NCBI GenBank assembly: GCA_018814045.1
Contig: JAHJAR010000288.1
Location: 1-64,000 of the forward strand
Length of the DNA stretch: 64,000 nt
Source of the DNA: Planctomycetota bacterium
GTDB lineage: Bacteria; Planctomycetota; Phycisphaerae; UBA1845; Fen-1342
Reading direction: 5' to 3'
Each line of letters opens with the position of its first letter. The stretch's first letter is position 1. Position numbers and translations under genes: made by a program. The notes under the pieces are model-generated. The model saw only the letters and a list, made by a program, of their open reading frames with translations, did not search any database and was not told the DNA's origin. This document shows, piece after piece, positions 1,807-34,368 of the stretch.

Positions 1807-4434
1807 ATGAGAAGTATCCGACCGCTTGCGCTCACTATCGCAGTCCTGCTGGCCGTATCGCTGCTTCAGGCAACGGCCTGGGCCGCTGACGGCGACACCA
1901 TCCACGCGGCCGCCCGCCGCGGTGACCTGCCGCGCGTGCAAGCGTTGCTGGACGGTGCTCCCGGGCTAATCAACGCTCGCACAACGGACGGCGAGACACC
2001 CCTGCAGTACGCCATCCTCGGCCGGCAGCCGGCGGTGGTCGAGTTTCTGCTGGCGCGCGGGGCGGACGCGAATGCCTCAGACGTACACGGCAGTACCGCC
2101 TTGCACATGGCCGCGGCCGCGCGCGACGCAAAGTTGATCGGGACCCTGCTGAGTTACGGCGCCGTGGTCGAGGTCGCCAATCAGCTCGGTGACACGCCGC
2201 TGCACATCGCCGCCGCACGCGCTCACCAGGCGGCGCTGCGCGCTTTGCTCATCGCCGGCGCCGACGTCAACGCGCGCAACACCCGCGGCCAGACGCCCCG
2301 CGACGTGCTCGGTGCAGCGGTACGCCTCCGCGACGCGGAGGTTGAGGGACTCATCGACGCGCTGGCCGATCTGCTGGTCGAGAGCTGGGCCACTTCGCAA
2401 ACGCCGGCGGTCGGCGAGCCGCCGCCCACAGTGGCGGATGAGCGCGACGACGGTGTCGGACCGCTCACCGCCGACTACCGCAGCTACGCCGAGATAGCGC
2501 AGATTCTGCAGGACGCGGCCAGCGACTATCCGGACATCTGCCAGGTGCACGACCTCGGCCTGTCGTATCAGGGCCGTCACCTCTGGGCCTTGAACATCAG
2601 CGACAACGTCGGCGCCGAGGAGGACGAGCCAGAGTTCAAGTACGTCTCGACCATGCACGGCAACGAGACCGTTGGCAATGAGATGTGCCTGTTCTTCATC
2701 GATCTGCTGCTCACCAGCTATGGCGTCGATCCGGACCTCACGAGCCTGGTCGACGAGATCGACATCTGGATCGTCCCGCTGATGAACCCCGATGGCTATG
2801 AAGCGGGTACCCGCGAGAACGCCCAAGGCGTGGACCTCAACCGCGATTTTCCGGAGGGAACCAACGGCGACCCGAACACCACCGCCGGCCGCGCCCCGGA
2901 AACGGCAGTCATCATGAACTGGACGTTTGCGAGTTCCTTCACGCTGTCGGCGAACATGCACACGGGCGCCCTGGTGGCGAACTATCCGTACGACAACGAC
3001 GGGATGGGCTCCGTTTTCTCACCGACGCCCGACGAGGATCTGTTCGTCTACATCAGCGAGCAGTATTCGCAGCACAACCCGCCGATGTGGAACAGCCCCT
3101 ACTTCACGCACGGCATCACCAACGGGGCCGAGTGGTACGCCGTCGACGGCGGTATGCAGGACTGGCACTACCGCTACATGGGTGGCAACGAGGTCACACT
3201 CGAGCTGAGCAACACTTTCAGCCCGCCCTATTCGCAGATCCCGCAGTACTGGAACGAGAACCGCGACTCCATGCTCGCGTACATGGAAACTTGTCTGATC
3301 GGCGTACGTGGCCTCGTAACCGACGCCGTCACCGGTGAGCCCGTCTTCGCCACGGTCACCGTCACCGGACGCGACCACGAAGTCTACAGCGACCCGGACG
3401 TGGGTGACTATCACCGCCTGCTGCTGCCCGGCACGTACGAGTTGAGCTTCGAGGCCGACGGCTACGAGACGCTGTCCGTCTCGAACGTCACCGTCAATGG
3501 CGGCGACGCGACACGCCTCGACGTCCAGATGGCGCGCACCGTGGTCACGTACCCCAACGGCGGCGAGACGCTCTACGTGGACGTACCCACCACCGTGACC
3601 TGGGACGGCAACCCGACGGCCCAGTTTCACGTTCAGGGCACCGACAACTTCGGCGATGTGAGCGCGGTCACCGATGACTTCGAACGCACCAGCCTCGGAC
3701 CGGACTACGCCACCGGCGGCGCCGCCGACTGGTACATCACGACCGACAGCGCCCACGGCGGCACGCGCTCGGCCCGCTCCGGCGTTATCGGCAACAACGC
3801 AACGAGCTGGATGACGCGCAATGTCGGCGGCGGGACAGTGAGCTTCTGGTACCGCGTCAGCTCCGAAGACACCTACGATTTCCTCAACTTCTACATCGAC
3901 GACGAGCGCCAACTGCACCTCTCCGGCGAAATCGGCTGGACCTACTACACCACCACCCTGCCCGACGGACCGCACGAGCTGAAATGGGAGTACACTAAGG
4001 ACTATAGCTGGACGGGCGGTTCCGACCGGACTTGGATCGACGATCTGGAGATCGCCGACGACAACACCGTTTGGACCGACATCATCGCCCTGACCGATCC
4101 CGGCGCGCTGGCCACGCCCTGGACGCCGACCACCGTCAGCAGCGACTGCAAGGTCCGCGTGCGGGCCTATTATGGGGGCGGTTCGTACGGCGGCTGGGAT
4201 GAGAGCGACGCCACGTTCGAAGTCGTCGAAGGTTTACCCGGTGACCTCAACTGCGACAGCCTCATTAACGGCTTCGACATCGATCCGTTCGTGCTCGTGC
4301 TCGGCGACACCCCGCCCGATTACCCCGCGTACTACTCGCAATACCCCGACTGCGACCACATGCGCGCGGACTGCAACGGCGACGGTGACATCAACGGCTT
4401 CGACATCGAGGCGTTCCTGGAACTGCTGGACTAG
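1807..4434 (+). CDS. secreted ankyrin-repeat / M14 zinc carboxypeptidase / dockerin-like fusion
   Basis: The ATG at 1807 is preferred over the longer frame from 1741 because it begins a clear signal peptide (MRSIRPLALTIAVLLAVSLL...AWA). About residues 28-165 are four ankyrin repeats (GETPLQYAI, GSTALHMAA, GDTPLHIAA). About 220-520 form an M14 carboxypeptidase: HGNE zinc motif (H284, E287), NMHTG with the third ligand near H385, and a VTLELSNT segment holding the likely catalytic Glu. A CarboxypepD_reg-like beta domain (VTDAVTGEP), an MAM/LamG-like region and two dockerin-like loops (NCDSLINGFDID, NCNGDGDINGFDIE) end the protein. It probably trims C-terminal residues from extracellular peptides. 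Ankyrin repeats on an exported peptidase are unusual. Confidence 0.85.
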   Translation: MRSIRPLALTIAVLLAVSLLQATAWAADGDTIHAAARRGDLPRVQALLDGAPGLINARTTDGETPLQYAILGRQPAVVEFLLARGADANASDVHGSTALHMAAAARDAKLIGTLLSYGAVVEVANQLGDTPLHIAAARAHQAALRALLIAGADVNARNTRGQTPRDVLGAAVRLRDAEVEGLIDALADLLVESWATSQTPAVGEPPPTVADERDDGVGPLTADYRSYAEIAQILQDAASDYPDICQVHDLGLSYQGRHLWALNISDNVGAEEDEPEFKYVSTMHGNETVGNEMCLFFIDLLLTSYGVDPDLTSLVDEIDIWIVPLMNPDGYEAGTRENAQGVDLNRDFPEGTNGDPNTTAGRAPETAVIMNWTFASSFTLSANMHTGALVANYPYDNDGMGSVFSPTPDEDLFVYISEQYSQHNPPMWNSPYFTHGITNGAEWYAVDGGMQDWHYRYMGGNEVTLELSNTFSPPYSQIPQYWNENRDSMLAYMETCLIGVRGLVTDAVTGEPVFATVTVTGRDHEVYSDPDVGDYHRLLLPGTYELSFEADGYETLSVSNVTVNGGDATRLDVQMARTVVTYPNGGETLYVDVPTTVTWDGNPTAQFHVQGTDNFGDVSAVTDDFERTSLGPDYATGGAADWYITTDSAHGGTRSARSGVIGNNATSWMTRNVGGGTVSFWYRVSSEDTYDFLNFYIDDERQLHLSGEIGWTYYTTTLPDGPHELKWEYTKDYSWTGGSDRTWIDDLEIADDNTVWTDIIALTDPGALATPWTPTTVSSDCKVRVRAYYGGGSYGGWDESDATFEVVEGLPGDLNCDSLINGFDIDPFVLVLGDTPPDYPAYYSQYPDCDHMRADCNGDGDINGFDIEAFLELLD

Positions 4435-29785: not shown

Positions 29786-30754
29786 ATGAAACTCGGAGTG
29801 ATGGGCGCAGGACTCGGCGGCATGGAGTGGGAAAAGGCTCTCGATTATTGCCAAAAGGTCGGCCTGGAAGCGATCGAGCTGCCCGCCGGGGCCTATCCCG
29901 GGAAGCCGTTCTTCGACCCGGAAGAAGTCCTCAAAGACGCGAAGAAACAGAAGAAAATCGTCGAGGACTGCAAGAAGCGCGGCTTGGAGATCATCGGCCT
30001 AGCCACGCACGGTAATCCCGTCAGCCCCAACCCCGAAATGCGCGCCCAGCACGAGCGCGATCACGACGTCGCCGTCAGGCTGGCCCCCAAGCTGGGCACC
30101 GACGTCGTGATCAACTTCTCTGGCTGCCCCGGCGGCGCACCCGGCGACAAGCTGCCCAACTGGGTTACCTGCGCCTGGCCGCCGGAGTACGGCGAGATTC
30201 TCAAGTACCAGTGGGACGACGTGCTGATCCCCTTCTGGACCAAGAAAAACCAGGAGGCCGCCAACGAGGGCGTCAAGATCGCCTTCGAGGCCCACCCCGG
30301 CTTCTGCGTTTACAACACCGAGACCATCCTTCGGTTGCGTGAAGCCTGCGGGCCGCAGCTCGGCGCCAACCTCGACCCGTCGCATTTCTTCTGGCAGGGC
30401 ATCGACCCGGTCGAGTCCGCCCGCGTGCTCGGCGACGCCGGCTGCATCTTCCACGTCCACGGCAAGGACACCGCCATCGACCCGCACAACACCAAGATCA
30501 ACGGCGTGCTCGACACCGGCAGCTACGCCGACCTCGGCAAACGAAGCTGGGTCTTTCGCACCTGCGGCTACGGCCACGGCGACGAATTCTGGAAGCCGTT
30601 CATCAGCATGTTGAAAATGAAAGGCTACGACGGCGTCATCAGCATCGAACACGAAGACTCGCTCATGAGCGTCCAGGAGGGCTTCGAAAAAGCCGTCGCG
30701 TATCTGCGCGGCGTCCTGATCAAAGAGAAGGCCGGCGAGGCGTGGTGGTTTTAG
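29786..30754 (+). CDS. sugar phosphate isomerase/epimerase (xylose isomerase-like TIM barrel)
   Basis: The 322-residue AP endonuclease 2 / xylose-isomerase-like TIM barrel shows MKLGVMGAGLGG, GLEAIELPAG, IAFEAHPGFCVYN (metal Glu), LGANLDPSHFFWQGID (Asp/His ligands), FHVHGKD and the C-terminal VISIEHEDSL (last metal Glu). It should isomerise or epimerise a sugar in the cytoplasm with a divalent metal; substrate unknown. A TAGGAGC Shine-Dalgarno precedes the ATG. The last ~180 bp are repeated at 31415-31607, beyond the PIN-domain pair. Confidence 0.9.
   Translation: MKLGVMGAGLGGMEWEKALDYCQKVGLEAIELPAGAYPGKPFFDPEEVLKDAKKQKKIVEDCKKRGLEIIGLATHGNPVSPNPEMRAQHERDHDVAVRLAPKLGTDVVINFSGCPGGAPGDKLPNWVTCAWPPEYGEILKYQWDDVLIPFWTKKNQEAANEGVKIAFEAHPGFCVYNTETILRLREACGPQLGANLDPSHFFWQGIDPVESARVLGDAGCIFHVHGKDTAIDPHNTKINGVLDTGSYADLGKRSWVFRTCGYGHGDEFWKPFISMLKMKGYDGVISIEHEDSLMSVQEGFEKAVAYLRGVLIKEKAGEAWWF
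30571..30754 (+). repeat. direct repeat, copy 1: 3' end of the isomerase gene
   Basis: This segment encodes GHGDEFWKPFISMLKMKG to the stop codon. Copy 2 at 31418-31607 matches it with about 20 differences over ~172 aligned bases (hand count) plus a 9-bp insertion near the start of copy 2. Confidence 0.92.
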
Positions 30755-30757
30755 CCG

Positions 30758-31204
30758 ATGCGGGTCTGTTTGGACGTCTGTTGCCTGAATCGGCCCTTCG
30801 ACGATCAGTCGCAGGAACGAATCAGGCTGGAAAGCGAGGCCGTCAAGCTCGTCTTCGATCTGGTCGCCAAGGGTTTGCACGCGTGGATCAGCAGCGAAGC
30901 AGTCGAGTTCGAGATCTCCCGGCATCCCGACGACCAGCAGCGCTTGAGCCTTCAGGTTCTTATCTCGCTAGCCAACGAGCGGCTTATCGTGGACAGCCAA
31001 GCGGCGACCCGAGCGGCGCAGTTGGAATCCGCGGGAATCCCGGCGATGGACGCCGTCCATCTCGCCGTTGCGGAACAACACGGTTGTGACGTGTTTCTGA
31101 CGACTGACGATACGCTGATGCGCCGTGTGGCGCGTCTTGGCAAAAAGCTTCAACTTCGGGTCGCAAACCCGGTACAATGGATTGCGGAGGTTTTGGAACC
31201 GTGA
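30758..31204 (+). CDS. PIN-domain ribonuclease, probable VapC-like toxin
   Basis: This 148-residue PIN domain has acidic residues at the expected places: D6 (CLDVCCLNRPFDD), E50 region, D98 (PAMDAVHLAVAEQHG) and D117 (CDVFLTTDD). PIN domains of this sort cut RNA with Mg2+. The start lies 3 bp after the isomerase stop. The gene overlaps the next start by 4 bp (GTGA), so the two are translationally coupled, in toxin-first order. Whether the pair is an active toxin-antitoxin module is inference. Confidence 0.85.
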   Translation: MRVCLDVCCLNRPFDDQSQERIRLESEAVKLVFDLVAKGLHAWISSEAVEFEISRHPDDQQRLSLQVLISLANERLIVDSQAATRAAQLESAGIPAMDAVHLAVAEQHGCDVFLTTDDTLMRRVARLGKKLQLRVANPVQWIAEVLEP

Positions 31205-31413
31205 CTGAGAAGACGCTCACAATTCCCGAGCTTCGGGCCGAAGGATTGAAGGCCCTGCGCGACCGGCTCGGCCCGGCTGGCACCCTCCGCTTCCTACAGC
31301 TCTTCGACCCCGGCAAGGGTGACTACACCGCCGACCGTGAACAGTGGCTCAAGGATCTGACGGTGGACGAGATCACGCGCCAAATCGAGGCCCGGCGCGA
31401 CGGAGCCGAATAG
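31201..31413 (+). CDS. small protein paired with the PIN domain, putative antitoxin
   Basis: Start GTG 31201 overlaps the PIN stop (GTGA); a longer frame from ATG 31177 exists but would overlap more. The 70-residue product has TLTIPELRAEGLKALRDRLG, then FLQLFDPGKGDYTADREQWL and a helical acidic end. I recall similar small proteins beside PIN genes, without a named family. No DNA-binding motif is obvious. Function as antitoxin rests on gene pairing. Confidence 0.65.
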   Translation: MTEKTLTIPELRAEGLKALRDRLGPAGTLRFLQLFDPGKGDYTADREQWLKDLTVDEITRQIEARRDGAE

Positions 31414-31417
31414 CTGG

Positions 31418-31607
31418 TCACGGCGACCGCGACGACGAGTTCTGGAAGCCGTTCATCAGCATGCTGAAAATGAAAGGCTGCAACGGCGTCATCAGCATCG
31501 AGCACGAAGACTCGCTCGTGAGCATCCAGGAAGGCTTCGAAAAAGCCGTCGCCTACCTCCGCTCGGTCCTGATCAAGGAAAAAGCCGGCGACGCGTGGTG
31601 GTTCTAA
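31418..31607 (+). pseudogene. direct repeat, copy 2: orphan 3' end of an isomerase gene
   Basis: The segment encodes GHGDRDDEFWKPFISMLKMK to a final DAWWF stop, homologous to the last ~60 residues of the isomerase at 29786-30754. It has no start or upstream domain and follows the putative antitoxin gene after 4 bp. Many differences are synonymous third-position changes, so the copies diverged under selection or came from a related genome rather than by a fresh duplication. Confidence 0.9.
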
Positions 31608-33132: not shown

Positions 33133-34368
33133 ATGTTGTACGTCGTCGCGTTCCTAGTTGGATTGCTTCTCGGAGCAGGTGCCTTGATTGCTCTCTTGAT
33201 TGAGAAGCAAAGCAGGCTGCGGAGTGAGAAAAACAGGTTGGCAGAGGAAGACGAGAGGCTGAAACGGTTTCGCACAGAGATTGAGCGAGGGCGTAAAACG
33301 CTCACTCACGAGGCGGAACAAGTGAAAGTGGAGCGCCGGGAGTTTGACGCACGCGTAATCTCCTACAAGGAACTGCACGCCGAAAACCTGATCCTCAAAC
33401 GTGACCTCCAGAACATCGACGTCGATTTGCGAAAGCTCCAACTCGACCGTGAACTTCAGCGCGAGAGCCAAGCCAAGCTCGACGAGCGAACGAAGGAACT
33501 GGGGGGTCGCTACTTGAAGGAGAATGTGAAGTGGATCGGGTCCTCACTCACCGCCAACAACTTTGCCGCCTGCAAGAAACGCCTTCTGACCGTGATCGAG
33601 CGTTGCCGAGGAATCGGTTTCGACGTCACACCGGACGAGGAAGCCACGCTGTTGGCTGATCTGAAGACTGAATTCGAGAAGGCCGTGCGTGCCGCCTTGG
33701 AACGCGAGGAACAGGCCCGGATTAAGGCCCAGATCCGCGAAGAGCAGCAGCTTGAGAAAGAGATCGAGCGTGAACTTAAGCAGCTTGAGCGCGAGCAAGC
33801 TGCCATTCAGGCTGCGCTCGAGAAGGCCCTCGCGGAAGCCAAGGACGAACACAGCGAAGAGGTCGAGCGTCTCAAGGCGAGGCTGGCCGACGCAGAACAA
33901 AGAGCCGAGCGCACGAAATCGCGTGCGGAAATGACCAAGTCCGGCCATGTTTATGTCATTTCCAACATCGGCTCCTTCGGTGAAGCGGTTTTGAAAATTG
34001 GCATGACGCGCCGCCTCGAACCAAACGATCGAGTTCGAGAATTGGGCGACGCCTCCGTTCCGTTCCCTTTCGACGTGCACATGATGGTGTCGTCAGACGA
34101 CGCACCAAAGCTGGAGAACTCGCTACATAAGGCACTTCACGGAGTGCGCGTGAACAAGGTGAATCCTCGCAAAGAGTTCTTCAAGACAGACATCGAAACC
34201 GTACGTCAGCTCATCGAAGAGAACCACGGTGAAGTGGACTACGTCGTCGACGCTGAGGCGCTTGAGTATCGCCAGAGCCTTGAGATTTCGGACGACGATG
34301 AGGAGTACATCGAAAGGGTGTACGGCACGTTGAGCGATGATGACGAGATCAGTGCCGATGACGATTGA
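33133..34368 (+). CDS. membrane-anchored DUF4041 / Mug113 GIY-YIG nuclease (SNIPE-like)
   Basis: Residues 2-23 are a transmembrane helix (VVAFLVGLLLGAGALIALLI). Residues 25-120 are coiled coil. About 125-265 matches DUF4041 (VTPDEEATLLADLKTEFEKA; REEQARIKAQIREEQ). Residues 271-350 are a Mug113/T5orf172 GIY-YIG nuclease: HVYVISN (273-278), LKIGMTRR (287-294), RVRELGDASVPF, LENSLHKALH with Glu328, and RKEFF. An acidic tail (DDDEISADDD) ends the 411-residue chain. This domain order is that of SNIPE, described as a membrane-tethered nuclease cutting phage DNA during entry; the family identity is strong, function here is inferred. It sits 3 bp after the zinc-ribbon gene, in lower-G+C DNA. Confidence 0.88.
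   Translation: MLYVVAFLVGLLLGAGALIALLIEKQSRLRSEKNRLAEEDERLKRFRTEIERGRKTLTHEAEQVKVERREFDARVISYKELHAENLILKRDLQNIDVDLRKLQLDRELQRESQAKLDERTKELGGRYLKENVKWIGSSLTANNFAACKKRLLTVIERCRGIGFDVTPDEEATLLADLKTEFEKAVRAALEREEQARIKAQIREEQQLEKEIERELKQLEREQAAIQAALEKALAEAKDEHSEEVERLKARLADAEQRAERTKSRAEMTKSGHVYVISNIGSFGEAVLKIGMTRRLEPNDRVRELGDASVPFPFDVHMMVSSDDAPKLENSLHKALHGVRVNKVNPRKEFFKTDIETVRQLIEENHGEVDYVVDAEALEYRQSLEISDDDEEYIERVYGTLSDDDEISADDD

Follow-up and report, generated by a model that had tools for sequence, protein, structure and literature searches.

Prophage e14 (phage 21) at icd in Escherichia coli, like other elements that exchange the 3′ end of a gene, brings its own gene end. When icd and icdC around e14 in E. 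coli K-12 were compared, the two copies matched over 165 nt with 92.7% identity, their differences were distributed as 1/0/11 over the first, second and third codon positions, and the match ended at the stop codon. The locus described here resembles this arrangement in that the element would supply the 3′ end, the gene is intact, an orphan tail lies at the far side and the divergence is coding-like. However, e14 is a 15-kb element with intE, whereas the pairs of gene ends around cassettes described here, which we refer to as brackets, mostly enclose 0.5–2 kb and lie at many unrelated genes. In contrast to e14, no integrase was detected in or beside the element on the bracket contigs that were searched.

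Insertion with long target duplication has been described for restriction-modification (R-M) units in Helicobacter pylori (Nobusato et al. 2000, as summarized in PMC1643837 and PMC3874152), and long, variable target duplications of ~100 bp have been reported for R-M systems (PMC3874152; PMC1643837). These cases share with ours small selfish or defence modules, direct repeats on the order of 100 bp and no known recombinase. Here, in contrast, the repeats are 3′ gene ends that have diverged as coding sequence, which fits an imported allele and not a copy arising upon insertion, the cargo is mostly toxin-antitoxin-like, and multi-tail arrays occur. Homology-facilitated illegitimate recombination (PMC2884548) has been proposed for T6SS immunity arrays (PMC5361080). 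Orphan arrays of the T6SS/Rhs/CDI type likewise have a conserved homology anchor, and successive insertions push older modules into an array, but their host locus is a toxin-immunity locus with a variable end, whereas ordinary metabolic genes form the anchor here and the conserved end is kept. Integron arrays are similar in that small cassettes, often of the toxin-antitoxin type, alternate with a repeated element; here, however, the 3′ end of the neighbouring gene itself forms the repeat, and no tyrosine recombinase was found on the contigs searched.

As far as seen, what is new relative to the known entries behind genes is that no recombinase was seen, that the cargo is toxin-antitoxin- or defence-like and that the arrays are punctuated by gene ends. 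A literature search, which left most subscription journals uncovered, returned no earlier description of gene ends bracketing toxin-antitoxin cassettes. On balance, we lean slightly toward the explanation that homologous recombination anchored in a conserved gene end placed a tail-bearing cassette behind the gene.

The duplicated isomerase end and its cargo

The window analysed here covers 64 kb at the start of a contig of 127 kb (G000:C149), which belongs to a metagenome bin that is 94.8% complete and 7.35% contaminated. The last 183 bases of an isomerase-like gene in this window recur 853 bases downstream, in the same direction and in frame. A repeat search and a script identified this as a gap-free direct repeat (30571–30753 versus 31424–31606; 183 nt, 88% identity, E ~1e-61). 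Among direct repeats within 6 kb in the window it has the best E-value, and no other was detected at a gene end there by the repeat scan. With a 9-bp insertion allowed, the match reaches GG(C/T)CACGGCGAC, so that the gene copy spans 30572–30754 and the orphan copy 31416–31607. The bracket has the following parts:

29786..30754, + strand: host gene, intact, for a 322-aa xylose-isomerase-like TIM-barrel protein (ORF; Pfam AP_endonuc_2, 1.4e-29)
30571..30754, + strand: left repeat: the functional copy of the 3′ end, with the stop codon as right edge (repeat alignment)
30758..31204, + strand: PIN-domain protein, toxin-like, 148 aa (PF01850, 1e-9), 3 nt after the host stop codon
31201..31413, + strand: 70-aa partner, candidate antitoxin, with a GTG start at 31201 and a 4-nt overlap with the PIN stop codon
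31416..31607, + strand: orphan isomerase 3′ end, 88% identical and in frame, 2 nt past the partner stop codon and with its own stop codon
31428..31436, + strand: 9-bp in-frame insertion CGCGACGAC in the orphan copy (read from the sequence, start of the gene tail versus start of the orphan)

The orphan tail translates in frame as GHGD(RDD)EFWKPF...DAWWF-stop and remains open to its own stop codon. The two tails differ at ~20 coding positions, ~13 of which are third codon positions in a recount by hand. The tally over tail pairs gives 11/21 third positions for this pair, which on its own is not significant and counts against recombination in the gene end. A preliminary description of the locus had placed the bracket at 30571–31607, and the repeat search showed these coordinates to be correct; the repeat alignment also reproduced the duplicated 3′ end, the ~20 differences with their third-position share and the 9-bp insertion that had been listed there.

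The enclosed genes show the layout of a VapC-like type II toxin-antitoxin system, with a PF01850 PIN gene and an adjacent small partner in one operon, the PIN gene being first. The 70-aa partner had no match among the Pfam, NCBIfam or PADLOC models; it belongs to a family that is conserved in Phycisphaerae and adjoins the PIN gene in 23 of 30 PIN loci. The pair would presumably have toxin-antitoxin activity. At two M20 peptidase loci (L186 and L191, in G068 and G084), the partner adjoins a DUF2806 protein and the PIN gene is absent. Since the DUF2806 protein replaces the PIN protein beside the partner at these loci, the partner may be a modular antitoxin. Shortly downstream of the bracket, at 33133–34365 of the window, lies a gene for a protein with a C-terminal T5orf172/MUG113 domain, and its neighbours are two genes without a Pfam match.

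Full-length orthologs of the isomerase with 72–86% identity were found in ~20 related genomes, one in each, and the ortholog search detected no second protein-level tail in these genomes. This bears on a tandem duplication of the whole gene, in which only the last 190 bases of the second copy would have survived decay once cassettes had landed in it. Such a history would likewise leave a gene followed by a remnant of its 3′ end in the same direction. However, two full adjacent isomerases, the arrangement that had been named beforehand as speaking against an imported gene end, were not seen, and a single full-length isomerase was present in each relative that has a close ortholog. In addition, the remnants begin abruptly beside a cassette gene, several of them retain an open frame, and up to three orphan tails occur per gene, all of which makes tandem duplication very improbable. 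Among 80 isomerase loci, with flanks of up to 6 kb on each side, none shared gene synteny with the window, and an empty site in the strict sense could therefore not be drawn for it.

Further copies of the isomerase end were detected at two places. At one of these 80 loci, in another genus, a decayed copy in the same orientation (L068:3268–3340; JACRLV010000133.1, G019:C3) lies 1.4 kb downstream of the isomerase and starts at nearly the same position of the gene as the orphan in the window. It follows two unrelated small genes, with no PIN gene there, and is apparently an independent event at the same host gene. A third isomerase tail, frameshifted and 79% identical over 62 nt, is located elsewhere in the bin of the window (G000:C351:2194–2256; L033, L363), where it overlaps the end of a hemerythrin-like gene.

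Gene ends around other cassettes in Phycisphaerae

A search for PIN pairs with duplicated gene ends elsewhere did find them, but at other host genes. Within Phycisphaerae, brackets of 3′ gene ends were present at 7 of 40 loci of the PIN/partner family, the window included, with the following hosts:

Isomerase: the bracket in the window (G000)
Carboxyltransferase: bracket in G018
M20 peptidase: brackets in G068 and G084, where the partner occurs with the DUF2806 protein
Acyl-CoA dehydrogenase: bracket in G068
sucC: bracket in G379
Eco57I-type methylase: bracket in G021

The direct repeats at the brackets measure ~98–280 nt, and the DNA that they enclose is mostly 0.5–2 kb long. Brackets at the acyl-CoA dehydrogenase gene were seen in G068, G084 and G065, and two further genes are bracketed in G084. 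In G065, which belongs to another genus, the same dehydrogenase end brackets an AbiEii-like AAA ATPase and a DUF3226 protein. One acyl-CoA dehydrogenase end thus carries different cargo in two genera, which counts in favour of recombination in the gene end.

At three loci, several tails alternate with toxin-antitoxin-like or other small cassettes. The dehydrogenase array of G068 (L178/L278, G068:C7) contains three extra tails with 98% (over 48 nt), 92% and 87% identity, and a BrnT-type toxin, a PIN pair and other small modules lie between them. Tail identity drops with distance in this array, as if new cassettes enter beside the gene. In G021 the order is methylase, DUF6602-like gene, tail, DUF4258/DUF2283 pair, tail, PIN pair, tail, and the M20 peptidase of G084 is followed by two orphan tails.

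Repeat scans revealed four brackets of gene 3′ ends in 380 kb of G084 and at most one candidate in 800 kb, i.e. 400 kb each of G015 and G036; bracket density is therefore lineage-dependent. The bracket in the window was the only one in the 344 kb of its own genome that were scanned. These results also concern an assembly artefact, a chimera of two strains in the metagenome bin, with which two tail alleles on one contig and the contamination of 7.35% would be compatible. However, six other bins show this pattern as well, a single 380-kb contig has it several times, and the joints between cassettes and tails sit in non-homologous sequence. We regard such an artefact as the least probable of the explanations considered.

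Several candidates were rejected as 3′-end brackets. The repeats of L047 and L185 are non-coding or transposon-like, those of L038 and L196 represent a dispersed repeat and recurring zinc-ribbon ends, those of L064 are transposase-like, L143 contains a dispersed non-coding repeat, and L180 contains YgiT-type antitoxin paralogs. The case of L063 (G084:C4), which resembles the brackets but involves a 5′ end, was excluded from the bracket counts. There, two copies of the carB 5′ end with 92% identity, both cut off at the start codon (934–1072 and 2998–3137), surround an AbrB-like/PIN pair, from another PIN family, and an FRG-like protein matching the PADLOC PDC-S15 models. This is possibly a mirror-image bracket at a gene start. 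On another contig of the same genome (G084:C7), the acyl-CoA dehydrogenase (303829–305103) and other proteins contain in-frame SRDRKGA-like repeat insertions, apparently a dispersed element inside coding genes; similar sequence also abuts two peptidase orphan tails.

Divergence and edges of the tails

Across 15 tail pairs, the differences at codon positions 1, 2 and 3 numbered 44, 46 and 162, and position 3 was the maximum in 14 of these pairs. The third-position share of 64% (162/252) compares with ~46%, our own estimate for a local copy in decay beside a gene with silent changes only (p = 4e-9, to be taken as a guide only as sites and loci are not fully independent). In genus g34, six orphans agree with their own gene alone at 14 sites, whereas at 40 sites they match one or both congeners and not their own gene; these tails are not closer to the gene that they follow than to the genes of relatives. 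The third-position-biased divergence together with the congener matches suggests that the two tails are two formerly functional alleles. Judged from the sequences, each tail would thus appear to have once been a functional allele, the cassette having come with its own gene end.

The preliminary description had proposed a cassette that carries its own copy of the end of a protein gene and regenerates the reading frame, similar to elements that target tRNA genes. The proposal gained support from the recurrence at other host genes, the third-position bias (162/252), the g34 orphans, for which the own gene is not the closest match, and the same signature in the known icd/e14 case. The single peptidase 3′ end of the g34 congener G037 also speaks for recombination in the gene end. 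Several observations speak against it: the closest match of one orphan (G068 o2) is its own gene, the gene tails in g34 look no more foreign than the gene bodies, the dehydrogenase tail tree has mostly weak support, and the flanks beyond the orphans did not align, even within g34.

At the right edges of the tails, gene and orphan cease to align at the stop codon or no more than 7 nt from it in 14 of 17 cases. Orthologs whose flanks differ lose their alignment at the stop codon too, which is in favour of recombination in the gene end. The edges and the divergence together bear on an insertion with long target duplication, in which the resident's own gene end would have been copied at insertion and the copies would have diverged later. 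The kind of cargo is similar to that of the R-M cases, the repeats are of the same order of length (PMC3874152, PMC1643837), and some orphans are indeed nearest their own gene. Yet the excess at third positions (162/252), the orphans that match the genes of congeners as well as their own, and copies that stop at the stop codon, with downstream sequence excluded, make this explanation distinctly unlikely.

The left edges cluster per gene, at −140 to −159 in five acyl-CoA dehydrogenase orphans and at about −184/−191 for the isomerase in two genera. This clustering may reflect a preferred site instead of random joints, and argues against recombination in the gene end. Alternatively, a recombinase that acts in trans or has since been lost could insert cassettes within the 3′ part of the host gene, and the tail on the cassette would restore the frame, as happens at icd with phage 21/e14. 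Left edges that are alike within one host gene across genomes are in agreement with this idea, as are the same signature at E. coli icd/icdC and the alternation of cassettes and tails, which resembles integron arrays. However, the host genes are unrelated, no shared motif or microhomology was evident by eye at the left edges, and the peptidase site has two different left edges. Moreover, neither the tyrosine recombinase domain PF00589 nor the serine recombinase (resolvase) domain PF00239 was detected on the bracket contigs of G000, G068, G084, G018, G019 and G065, and the resolvase domain search found no PF00239 on those of G021 and G379. The lack of such domains on the contigs searched also counts in favour of recombination in the gene end. 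We consider such site-specific integration fairly unlikely.

A proposed route for cassettes behind conserved genes

Under homologous recombination in the gene end, the PIN/partner pair would arrive with the 3′ end of a related bacterium's isomerase allele attached, and recombination within the conserved end would join the incoming tail and cassette to the resident gene. The host gene would remain whole with one tail, and the other tail would become the orphan behind the cassette. A cassette between two tails would have a homology arm on each side and could move into every genome with the gene, irrespective of the synteny of the flanks; repeated events would yield arrays of cassettes separated by tails. 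An illegitimate joint would be needed only once, at the point where a cassette acquires a second tail, probably as in homology-facilitated illegitimate recombination. The right edges follow gene homology, and the left joints are without microhomology evident by eye. The recombination would presumably be of the RecA type and would involve uptake of DNA from relatives; a ComEC-type gene was present in 8 of 9 genomes, a common gene and as such a weak pointer to competence.

It has long been asked how toxin-antitoxin and small defence modules move without mobility genes. Gene ends, should they act as homology arms, would offer a simple route and would account for modules located right behind housekeeping genes. 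Small toxin and defence cassettes may spread by riding on conserved gene ends while the host genes stay unbroken, as the recurrence of the arrangement behind other genes in related bacteria suggests. The signature is cheap to scan for in genomes: direct repeats of 100–280 bp around 0.5–2 kb, with a stop codon at their end and differences at third positions. Somewhat short of an even chance, in our estimate, is the wider proposal that the Phycisphaerae own a recombinase-free cassette system in which the 3′ end of any conserved gene may serve as a portable homology arm, giving integron-like toxin-antitoxin and defence arrays behind core genes in which successive functional tails part the modules and each tail records one transfer between related species. 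If this is true, the orphan tails would be a countable fossil record of each transfer and its donor.
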